Of a DNA stretch of 64,000 nt, positions 17,601-26,600 are shown piece after piece. The stretch's first letter is position 1. Each line of letters opens with the position of its first letter. The stretch is taken from assembly GCA_026745465.1 (NCBI GenBank), contig JACYXH010000479.1, forward strand, positions 2,525,397-2,589,396. Direction: 5' to 3'. This stretch comes from Lota lota (Eukaryota; Chordata; Actinopteri; Gadiformes; Lotidae). Below the pieces are notes generated by a model. The model did no database searches. It had not been told where the DNA came from and worked only from the letters and a program-made list of their open reading frames with translations. The position numbers were made by a program, and so were the translations under genes.

Positions 17601-20600
17601 TACATGTGCACTATAAAGTGTTTTAATTTTGAGAACAAGTACTGTATATTAAAGGCAGCCAGGTAGAGTCTGTGAAGACACATGGCGTCAAATAGATGTG
17701 GATGTGCATGCAAATATGTTTCTATATATCGGCGCATGTACACACACACACACACACACACACACACACACACACACACACACACACACACACGTGACTA
17801 CACACATGGGCTTGTTTGCATGTGTCAATCTATTTTTGTGTGTCAGACAGACGTTGGTCTATTTGTGGGTGTAGACCCCCCTGGGCTGAACAGGTAGGGT
17901 GGTGGTAATGGGGGGAGGGGTGCTTGGCATGCTGAAGGTCAGACATGATTCAGTGCAGTGATCCCCCCTCCCCCTTATTATTACACCTACAGCGGTCTTG
18001 TCATGCTAACCTGTTGTTACGCGGTTTGATATGACCTGTTTTATTCAGTTTGTCAGTGTCTCCCCATCATTCATTGAATACAATGCTCAATTCAATTAAA
18101 TATCAATGTCAATATCACTTGATAGAGTTACAGTGAGATCTTGAGTCGTTTCTATCCCCCTCACTGCATTACCCAACAAGTAAAGACACGTCCATTGTGT
18201 GTCCGTAGCTCTTAATGTGAAAGGGCTGTACAGGCCCACTGTTACCAAGGGGGAATACAGAACCATAGACCAGGCGAGCTCAGCGAAAACTCCCAGTATA
18301 CCTTATTAGGGTTCAAATAGAAATCTACTTTGGTTGTGGGGTCATACAATGGCTTCTTCTTGCTTGCACAGCTCATAGTATGCACCTGATCTTCCAGAAC
18401 TGAAGAGAGCAGAAGAGCTATGCTTATTAGAAGAAAGATAACAGTAACTGTACAGATTAACATGATGGACTGTAGCAAATAATAAGATAACCCGAACAAT
18501 GTGTTCTCCAAATGGTGAAGCTTTGTCTTGATAAGTGACTCCGCCTATTCTCCGCAATGCCGTTTATTTGCTGTTAAATGGACAATAGAGAAGAATTACC
18601 AAATATATTATGCGTATATCAGGCTAATTTCCAATAACATTGTTGGCGTTATGGATGTAAGGTAGTAAAGTAGTTTGAAACAGCAGACCATGACAACGAT
18701 GATAACATTTGGAAGTTGGAAGAAAATTATTGGAAAGCTATCCCAAAAAATTAAATTGAAGCTGCAAGCAGCATTTTTCGGGGGCCAAGCCTAATACAGA
18801 CCATTTTGGTTTTTATACGGTTGATAACATTGGAATGGCCTCAGCTTGGGTCTGGTGATACAAACCTTCATGACCATATGTCAAAAGGGTGAGGAGTTAT
18901 GCTTTTTCAAAGTTTTCAATTGATTGCTGTAGTGCACCCTATGGTCCTACTAGGATGAACTTTAGCCTGATTAATCTTGACCTATGTTTCTTAAGTACAC
19001 ATAGTTTGGTGATGATTGCCCTAAATTAACCCTGCCTTCACCTGAAAGTGATTGGGCTTATTTTGTAGTTACAGGTTATGGGTTCCATAGGAACATTTGT
19101 TCATCATGAGGAGAAACAAATGCCAATAAAATGTCAAGACCGTAGGTGAAAGGGGTCAGAAAATATGACCATCCAAAGTTTGTCGATTGCTATAGCGCCC
19201 CCCTATGTCCCAATCTGGATAAACTTTGAAGCAATTAATCTTGACCCATGTGGCTTTAACTACACCAAGTTTGATGATGAGTTAAGTTAGCTCCTTAATT
19301 TTGATGGACCGTTTTGGGCCTCTGGCAGCCATGTTGTTTTGTCAATCGACTTTATGTTACTTGAGCAGTTAGAACCTTCGACCCCAACAGTCCTTAAGTT
19401 GGTTTGAGTACGCTCAAATCAAACAATACGTCTAGTAACTGTGGTCATTTTCATCACAAGCCATGCCCATTTTGATGTCACGCCATATTTGAAAATGTGT
19501 GGATGTCATCTTGTTCAGAATCTTGAACAACTTTTGTATTTGACTCAAGATCATAGGAGTCAATATAAGCATTTAAGTCTTTACGCGTTTTTAAGCCACA
19601 CTTACTAACGTACTAAAGGATTTTTTTCTACCTAGGATCCTTATGGTATTTAGTGTTTTTCTCAAAATTCTAAATGGCGGAAAATCTATACAGACGTCAG
19701 TTATACGTTAATGAGGGAAAGTTGTTCACCACGAGGAGACACATACATATTCAAAGTTTCATGACTGCAAGTCAAAGGGGTCAGGAGATATGCTTGTTCA
19801 ACGTTTGCGTTTTCGGACGATTGCTATAGCACCACCATTGGCCTAATCAGTGTAATTTTGAAGAATGTTTCATAAAAAGTGACAGAGCGGTTATGGCTGC
19901 GTAGGTGTTTTTGGCGGAATAATAAAACACTAACAACTACAATAGGTGCCTCGCCACACTGTGCTTAGCCCCCTAACAAGGTTGTTCTGATCTACCATCC
20001 AACTTCCTGGTGAAACATCATTGTTCTACTTATTCCCAGACTTGTGATGATGTCATACATTTTTCATCCAGAAAAGGCTTCTTACCCAATGTTAGTTAAA
20101 AGTAAGATTTATTTTTTAGTGTGCCTTAATGGTACACGCTCTACCCAGTGAGCCATCAGGGCGCCCCCTATGAGAGAGTACTTGATCTTGTTTTGGGCAA
20201 GAGGATTGATTGTCATCCTTCCAGAAAATGCAGATTGGACAGGGTTTGGTCCCGATTCTTTGTTGCTTGGGGGATTTTAGGAATGTTTGCAGATTCTTAA
20301 AAAAAAGATTGAAGCCGAATGATGTGTTGTTATAAAAATAAGATTTTGTTCAAAATCACATAGGTAATATTCCCCTTGGTGAGTCTAGCACTGATAAACA
20401 GAGATTTTTCATCCTCCCTTTTTTATTTGTTTCAGAAAATAGAAAATAGAGTACACAGTGGCCTGTGTATGTGCTTGCGTATATGTATGTTGTGGCAACC
20501 CGGCTCCAGGACAGCACCCCAGGTGGCTCAGGGGAGCGGTGGTAAATGGAGTCTACCGCCGCTCTCCGGAATATCGCACACCGGAGCTCATTAGCGCTGA

Positions 20601-23600: not shown

Positions 23601-26600
23601 GACTGCCCCGCAAATGATCGGAGGGTCCACGGGAACCCCCGCCGGCTGTACCTGACCGTCCCCGGAGAAAAGACGGGAAATACAGCCGAACATTAATGGA
23701 CCGTGACTGTTTGGTAGGCGCAGCCTAACCATATTATTTATTTTCTTTGTTAATAAATACGCCTACTTGGCTTTAAACAGACCTTCGACTTGTGTTCACT
23801 GGGGGGAGACTACAGCATAGTGCAACCGGGTTGCCACAATGTGTACAAGTGTATGTGTGTTTGTGTGCTTGCGTGTAAAAGTGTCTGACTGTGTGTGTGT
23901 GTGTGTGTTTGTGTGTGTGTGTATGTCTTGGTGCGTGCATGACTTTTGAGATTGCCTGAGGTCCTTCTTTCCGCTGGTTAAATTTTTTTCTTTCTTGTTG
24001 TGTCTAATTCTGCAGCAGCAGTGGCGTCTGGAAGAGGGTGGCAGAGACAGAGAGCATTTGCCTCAACCCTGGACGACTTGACAGTTATTGACCCGTTAGC
24101 ACATGGCCACCATCCTAACCCCAACCCCAGCACATCCACGCCCTACCCTGTCTATGCCGCATGTGTCATCCCTATGATGCAGAATGTAACAGCTCATCTC
24201 TCTCTCTGTCACCAAGCTTCTGGCCTACGTTAAAGGAGCACCAGACAGCTATTACTGGATGAACAGCGGGAGGGAGAGAGAGAGAGAGAGAGGTAAGAGA
24301 GAGAGACCTGTTGTTCCTCCGCACGTCCCTTCCTGTGTATCTTGGCGCACACACAGTCTCCCAGACGGATATATGCTATGCAGAGACGTCGATGCTTTCG
24401 TCTCGCGTGGCCTTCGTCAAATGGGAGCAAATCAGATACTCTGATGGGGGGGGGGGGGGGGGGGATTTCCTGATGTCTAGTGCTTTTCAGGCCTTTGCCA
24501 TGGTAACGCGCTGCCATCAAAGCTTTTAGATTGCAAGCTAATCAGTGTCGCTGAGCATGCTTACTCCCCTAAAACTTGAACCAGCAGCTCCCCAGATCAT
24601 CATGTCAGGCCAATCAGACACTATAATCACAAGCACGTGGATAGGGTGGTCAGTAATTTAGTCCTTCCTCTGTATGGACATTAACAGCAGACTTGTTAGT
24701 GTCCTGGTTGTCCATCGTCCTCCTGCATCTTTCTGTTCACGTTTTCTCTCTGTCTGTCTGTCTGTCTTTCTTTTCTAGTCAAACTCTATTGACTCTCTGA
24801 TTCTCGCTCTCCACCCCTCTCTCGTTCTTTGTTCCTTCTCTTGCCATCTCCTTCTCCTCCTTTGCTTTCTCCCAATCTCACCGCAAGCCTCCAGATCTCT
24901 ACCTACCTCTAAAAACTCTCTTTAATCCCCATTTCCCTCTGTCTCCCCCTGGCTCCCTGTGTCTGTACTTGGCTGCTTTATAAATAGCTTGGCCTAGATT
25001 ACAGCAGCTGCAATGGGGCTGGCACCAGAGGTTAGCTACGCCAGGGCCAACTGAGGTAGCCTGGTATCACAGGAGAGAGATGGAGAGAGAGGAGGAACGT
25101 GTATGTGTGAGAGATGGAGAGAGAGGGGGAACGTGTGTGTGTGTGTGTGTGTGTGTGTGTGTGTGTGTGTGTGTGTGTGTGTGTGTGTGTGTGTGTGTGT
25201 GTGTGTGTGTGTGTGTGTGTGTGTGTGTGTGTGTGTGTGTGTGTGTGTGTGTGTGTGTGTGTGTGTGTGTGTGTGTGTGTGTGTGTGTGTGTGTGTGTGT
25301 GTGATGCTACCTTAATTGTCTACTGGGAACATTATGTTGCAAGTGCTGTGTATTTTCTGTGTATGTGAAACTTTCCATTCTTCTGCAGTCAAACTCGCAC
25401 AAAGACCCACTCACACATGCCCATGCATAGAATTAGACTTCTGACACATAAGACAAAGATGCTCCTTTGCTTTCAAAATGTCACTCTGTGTTCATGTTTG
25501 ATGGTTTCATTGTTCCGTCATTTCTGACAGTATATTGTCAAAGGTGTGTGTGTGTGTGTGTGTGTGTGTGTGTGTGTGTGTGTGTGTGTGTGTGTGTGTG
25601 TGTGTGTGTGTGTGTGTGTGTGTGTGTGTGTGTGTGTGTGTGTGTGTGTGTGTGTGTGTGTGTGTGTGTGTGTGTGTGTGTGTGTGTGTGTGTGTGTGTG
25701 TGTGTGTGTGTGTGTGTGTGTGTGCGTGTGCCTGTGTGTGTACATGCACGTGTATGCATGTTCCACTAAGTGTTGGCTGTTCATACTAAACCTGTTGCGA
25801 TGATGGTCTACTGCCCTGGTTTCTCCTCTCCTGCTGCAGAGCACCAGCTCAGAATAAAAATTCCCTTTGTCAGTAGCTTGGAGACGCAGTGACTCATAAC
25901 CTCTTCTCTGTTCTGCTCCTCTCTGCTCCTCTCTTCTCCTCTCTGCTGTCTTGTTTTCTTTTCTCTCCCTTCTTTTCTTGTCTTTTCTCCTCTCCTTTAT
26001 CCTGCTATTTTTTCATTTGTTTTGTTAAAAGATAACTTTGAGATTTTTTCAACCTGGACCCTATTTTCCCATCATTTTAGGTCTAAGGGAGTAATGCGGT
26101 CAACAATGTTTTTAATTAGTCCAGCATTGAGCAAAAACGCTGCTGCCGAAATCATCAAAAATAAATCAGCAATGTTATATTTTGGGGCAATAGCACCCCA
26201 TCAATGTATGTCCTCTAAAAGTGCTTGATTTTGCCACTGACAGGCTCATATTGTTATTATAAGTTTCTGAAAACATTATGGAAAGGATTCTTACAGAGAA
26301 ATACAACTTCTTTCATTACCTTTGGCTTGATCTGGCCTGTTTGTTATTGTGTCTAACCAAGTCTCACTCAAGGAGAAATCTCACTTTGAAATTTCGTTGT
26401 TGTGTTGTTGCAGGGTATGTCCCTATTGTCATTACAACTCTTGCGATATTTCAGAGTGAGACTTCTCTTTTTGAGCGAGACTTGGTTAGACACCATAACA
26501 AATAACAATCTGAGCCTGTCAGTGGCAAAAACAAGCACTTTTAGAGGACATACATTGACAGGCGCTATTGCCCCAAAGGATTACATTGCAGCCTGTTCTC

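Follow-up and report, generated by a model that had tools for sequence, protein, structure and literature searches.

A burbot LTR retrotransposon whose gag frame appears to be pieced together from spliced coiled-coil exons of host genes

Introduction

A 64,000-nucleotide stretch of burbot (Lota lota) DNA (contig JACYXH010000479.1, positions 2,525,397 to 2,589,396; hereafter the window) contains, at window positions 20491-23838, an element bounded by two long terminal repeats (LTRs) with one long open reading frame between them. Where does this frame come from? The initial annotation proposed a Ty3/Gypsy-like gag fused to the captured tail of a host non-muscle myosin II. Our data make it very probable, at the level of sequence, that this is a non-autonomous Ty3/Gypsy-type LTR element in which gag after about residue 97 has been replaced, presumably through template switching, by a patchwork of spliced coiled-coil exons from several host genes.

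The burbot genome is given as 583.78 Mb with 38% LTR sequence in the accessible part of its description (PMC8650494). The capture of host mRNA by LTR elements is already known, from maize Bs1 (PMC13317346, in part) and from LTR-type retrocopies in zebrafish and other animals (PMC5408686, in part). Coiled-coil capture by a fish LTR element was not found among the titles and abstract openings listed in searches of one open-licence library.

Results

Host donors within the frame

The frame (21422-23518, + strand, as are all element features below) encodes 698 residues. After its gag start it runs through coiled-coil segments that come from four or more host genes: a coiled-coil gene at locus L041, citron kinase, an MYH9/10-type myosin II and a MYO18A-like gene. 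The donor exons were found in the same genome, and they are present in spliced form in the element at 87-100% identity. In the host, the matches to all four genes bear splice-type flanks, and the element is continuous across them with no intron. The intron-less pieces of host genes between its LTRs agree with LTR-mediated mRNA capture of the Bs1 kind.

The L041 exon occupies 21741-21854 (residues 107-144) at 93.9% DNA identity. Citron-derived sequence follows at residues ~149-238, comprising a piece of exon A at 21868-22002 (97.0% to locus L023), a piece of exon B at 21994-22027 (100% over 34 bases) that shares the six bases GCAGAG with exon A, and, at 22027-22136, exon C (94.3%) spliced to the first bases of exon D. 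Locus L023 is citron, eleven successive stretches of a goby protein with that record name (P0007) matching it in order at 76-100%.

Three host MYH exons match at the DNA level across 22120-22407 (residues ~233-329). The first is an exon piece at 22120-22183 (87.5% to locus L021) that shares ten bases (GGAGGAGCAG) with citron, the second is the next exon at 22178-22384 (90.7%, with nine bases absent in frame), and the third is the start of the following exon at 22382-22407 (100% over 26 bases). Myosin tail blocks had been expected at residues 237-334, and these matches bear that out. The frame also matches Pfam Myosin_tail_1 (E 1.8e-29) and myosin-9 (E 1.2e-23), and the myosin similarity is real; part of both scores is nevertheless contributed by adjacent coils from other genes. 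Among solved structures, myosin-9 is the closest to the MYH exon.

The last donor piece consists of two spliced MYO18A-like exons at 22401-22492 (residues ~328-357), matching loci L050 (92.6% over 27 bases) and L059 (89.7% over 68 bases) and sharing the seven bases CCAAGCT with myosin II. This match was found by a stricter ungapped alignment judged against 320 shuffles, and an unnamed protein of Coryphaenoides rupestris (P0036) matches the same exons. We take the L050/L059 gene to be MYO18A-like.

A single capture, in which everything after gag is myosin tail, would account for the collinear match to myosin-9 over residues 102-381. It is very improbable, however, as residues 107-238 match L041 (93.9%) and citron (94-100%) at the DNA level and residues ~328-357 match the MYO18A-like gene. 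With donor exons of other genes in the frame, a myosin-only capture was rejected. The proposed gag fusion therefore stands in that a non-muscle-type myosin II piece from a host gene is present, but at least three other donors accompany myosin in the frame.

Joins between donor pieces

Bases common to the element and both donors are present at all three window joins for which both donors are known, namely ten at the citron-MYH join, six within citron where a stretch is skipped, and seven at the MYH-MYO18A-like join. Against 20,000 random joins each, these give P values of 0.0002, 0.0075 and 0.0033 respectively, unadjusted for three tests, with a MYO18A-like donor piece of only 96 bases. The citron match reaches past the border between exons C and D and then gives way to myosin, hence the template was a spliced RNA. 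Shared bases at joins are again as in Bs1-like capture.

A likely sequence of events can be proposed. Element RNA and spliced host mRNAs would be packaged together in particles made by an autonomous relative, and reverse transcriptase would switch between them at short identical stretches. Later rounds, together with recombination among element copies, may then add and swap coil pieces, the products moving in trans.

The absence of introns would also be expected if LINE retrocopies of host mRNAs had landed in LTR elements and been carried along thereafter. We consider this very improbable, given that the inserts comprise internal exons only and that several genes are joined in one frame with shared bases at the joins; moreover, no poly(A) tract was found in the insert of the window copy. 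LINE retrocopies were rejected on these grounds.

The LTR element and its gag start

The 5' LTR (20491-21295, 805 bp) ends in TG...CA and has TATAAG at 20653 and AATAAA at 21209; the 3' LTR (23027-23838) is 812 bp long. Both sides are flanked by the target-site duplication ATGT (20487-20490 and 23839-23842). Paired LTRs with such ends and a short target duplication are as in Ty3/Gypsy-type LTR retrotransposons. Over 805 aligned sites the two LTRs show 12 mismatches, of which 7 are transitions and 5 transversions (Kimura two-parameter distance, K2P, 0.0151). The initial annotation was thus correct in describing near-identical repeats between ATGT duplications, and its view that the chimera moved fairly recently is judged right. 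A candidate primer-binding site (TGGTGGAGGATGC...) follows the 5' LTR at 21298-21315, and a purine-rich candidate polypurine tract (AAAGGGTGGAGGAG) precedes the 3' LTR at 23013-23026. Both are similar across 12 copies whose LTRs were paired by a script, although the script selected by such sites and the likeness is not independent.

The gag N-terminal part covers residues 1-97 (21422-21712) and is homologous to the Ty3/Gypsy gag of loci L042-L045 and of the database protein P0006. The gag-like start, earlier placed at the first 85 residues, therefore extends to about residue 97, where homology stops and the coils start. Downstream of the donor pieces lie a coiled-coil-like tail common to many family members (22490-22620) and a 21-bp tandem repeat encoding a seven-residue, LGRSNQH-like unit (22616-22772). 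The repeat has one leucine in every seven residues, and its number varies among copies as if lengthened by slippage. A weak, by-eye similarity at 22862-22940 may be a remnant of the region 3' of the relatives' zinc knuckle. The knuckle itself is missing from the window element. A Pfam match places it in L040, and inspection by eye places it in L006, L009 and L039. Codons past 23026, the last 163 of the 698, lie inside the 3' LTR.

No pol domain is among the seven Pfam matches of the 698-residue frame at E 10, and the element is filed as non-autonomous on this basis; as the initial annotation had it, one long frame stands in place of gag-pol. An NCBIfam scan gave only matches below cut-off, mostly SMC-like.

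A genome search with residues 1-90 gave at least 148 matches, 150 of the 221 candidates having been scored, with identities as low as 32%, and many of the distant ones lie inside frames of more than 1,000 residues. P0006, a gag-pol protein, is 68% identical to the frame along 13% of its length, in the part where gag starts. It carries Pfam accessions that we take to be those for zinc knuckle, reverse transcriptase and integrase. Loci L044 and L045 share the LTR, leader and gag with the window at their 5' ends, and L043 shares the LTR and gag, all at 78-87% DNA identity. Zinc-knuckle and integrase sequence is added by L042, which is broken by stops, and by P0006. An autonomous relative sharing the LTR had been suggested as a search target; the LTR and gag were recovered in L043-L045, but LTR and pol stand together in no locus read.

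These relatives bear on whether the frame might be an ordinary coiled-coil Gypsy gag, or an assembly artefact. The coil-like tail common to many copies would fit an ordinary gag, yet the related gag of L044 and P0006 runs on without coils, donor exons match at 87-100%, and burbot proteins with related mosaics have been deposited separately. Either possibility is scarcely credible, and both were rejected on the donor matches.

Related copies in the burbot genome

A search with residues 91-405 returned at least 80 matches, 10 of them with stops, in a list that mixes element copies and host exons. From 18 sources (the window, L002 and L025-L040) the script paired the LTRs of 12 elements; outside the pairing stand L002, L027 and L032 and five further candidates with no recognised 3' LTR. 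An identical 4-bp target duplication flanks 11 of the 12 paired copies, the twelfth (L036) being a composite. The duplications of L038 and L039 say little, because both sit in simple repeats. LTR distances across the 12 copies range from K2P 0.0034 to 0.0385.

The copies carry different coils. L002 and the window element have their citron join in common, but L002 then continues into a second MYH gene (92.9% to L046 versus 78.5% to L021), whereas the MYH piece of the window element is 90.7% identical to L021 and 76.4% to L046. L025 and L026 carry ERC/CAST sequence (Pfam Cast, E 3.1e-21 and 3.1e-27 respectively). In L035 (C527:72000-81900) six ROCK exons match at 95-100% DNA identity (ROCK1 in the PDB, E 2.2e-34), and 11 copies of this ROCK type reach a protein identity of at least 95%. 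Two ROCK-type copies in L035 lie about 5.3 kb apart and share their flanks, which means that segmental duplication accounts for some of the copies. Across the family the donors are two MYH genes, citron, ROCK, ERC/CAST and the MYO18A-like gene. A CCDC144C match in L040 may be generic coil similarity and was not counted as a donor. Rather than being a solitary capture, the element thus belongs to a family with coil sets that differ between copies.

Frame starts are of two kinds, MAAVSE... and MEVTIS.... The coil sets behind them overlap, a sign that copies may have exchanged sequence. Seven unnamed Lota lota database proteins show related mixtures by eye, and one of them, P0005, matches L033 at 97.2% identity across 395 residues. 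A region-limited protein search returned four proteins, all from burbot. In the Lota lota protein P0027, coils follow what by eye seems to be a different gag/protease start, suggesting that another retroelement lineage may have taken part. Further coil-like inserts are seen in L054 (C490:34200-35900) and L028/L053, in frames with SEFVERKECKLKENIQ and GDMQKRMVDSECQVKQLQ.

Coil queries account for most of the copies found, so a partial control anchored on gag was included. Of its six fetched loci, three (L053, L054 and L058) have inserts, each of which looks coil-like by eye; L053 and L054 are absent from all three coil-search lists, whereas L058 appears in every one. Of the remaining loci, L055 and L057 resemble decayed copies of gag, and the sequence of L056 passes into simple repeats. 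Six loci are too few to prove a coil preference.

Selection on the frame

Between copies, the ratio of nonsynonymous to synonymous substitution (dN/dS) ranges from 0.17 to 1.53, mostly 0.4-0.9, and is below one for 37 pairs out of the 40 that remained after filtering (from 120 possible pairs of 16 frames), the pairs overlapping with one another, with an identity filter that lowers dN and favours conserved blocks. When the element is compared with its donors, six of the seven exons give a dN/dS of 0.19-0.55, values to which host constraint adds, and the seventh exon is without change. Gaps that are not a multiple of three number 0 of 6 in L025 and L033 together, 7 of 11 in L002 and 99 of 133 in LTRs. 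Several copies that have diverged still retain long open frames.

Several points weigh against a patchwork gag that is built and kept in this way. Constraint at the protein level appears weak, with a tendency to keep the frame, and the gap counts come from copies partly chosen for open frames; stops are present in four of nine full-length ROCK-type copies. The autonomous partner is only inferred, because LTR and pol were not met in one locus. The join test covers the three joins for which both donors are known, and heptad register showed no clear continuity across joins by a simple custom scoring. The apparent preference for coils is partly search bias, and the whole interpretation is drawn from sequence comparison.

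Discussion

The part played by the coils

Within this patchwork reading, the coils could be there passively or could serve the element. On the passive account, coil mRNAs are rich in short shared motifs and a first coil eases switching to others, the protein having no role. The shared bases at joins, the dN/dS values of mostly 0.4-0.9 and the lack of a clear heptad register are consistent with this, while the persistence of long open frames in diverged copies, and the in-frame gaps of L025 and L033 (though not L002), speak against it. We give this account about an even chance.

Alternatively, and with rather less than an even chance, the coils may oligomerise in place of the capsid part of Gag, or may tether particles to the cell skeleton. 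Citron, ROCK and myosin II all work in the actomyosin system, and the coils occupy the place of the gag region that would follow the end of gag homology. A leucine zipper on HIV-1 Gag-PR was linked with more multimerisation, but the same study, in the part available, also saw fewer particles (PMC3291649). The weakness of amino-acid constraint also counts against a functional role. The passive account is slightly favoured. Under the patchwork reading as a whole, weak selection would tend to keep the frame open, and a possible reason is that coils substitute for Gag-Gag contacts.

More tentatively still, the family may represent a vertebrate retrotransposon lineage that uses host coils as interchangeable replacements for a capsid part, taken repeatedly from actomyosin and Rho-kinase genes and swapped among copies, in effect a coil-shuffling Gag.

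Comparison with known systems

Transforming retroviruses of the gag-onc type carry a gag start fused to a spliced piece of a host gene and spread in trans. The window element is like them in its gag start, its spliced host pieces and its proposed spread in trans; it differs in having several donors per frame, and no oncogene was seen in it.

Maize Bs1 is likewise an LTR element in which segments of three host genes form a chimeric gene; it is from a plant, and its donors are given as a membrane ATPase, a xylan endohydrolase and a glucanase in the portion available (PMC13317346). The window element, in contrast, is from a fish, its identified donors are coiled-coil parts, and its copies carry differing donor sets.

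In LTR-mediated retroposition, as a review describes it from the work of Tan and coworkers, host mRNA is taken up by template switching at short similarity, with cases in zebrafish, chicken, mosquito and Drosophila. The accessible part of that review allows several switches in theory, but makes no mention of an element family with several coil donors per frame (PMC5408686). LTR elements of bdelloid rotifers have also gained extra coding sequence; as far as the available text goes, theirs are additional open reading frames, whereas here host coils replace part of gag (PMC5408684).

Donors and copies within one genome show that a vertebrate LTR element can build multi-gene frames from spliced host mRNAs, repeatedly and recently. 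Retroelement-driven exon shuffling thereby becomes directly testable in an animal. If it is true that the coils stand in for capsid contacts, the family would in addition offer a natural experiment in the requirements of a Gag.

Other elements in the window

Two further frames, at 47256-48248 (+ strand) and 49280-50389 (− strand), span 331 and 370 codons from stop to stop, and by eye both resemble Tc1/mariner-type transposases. A stretch at 51765-52985 (− strand) contains two frames that by eye are similar to a hAT-type transposase.

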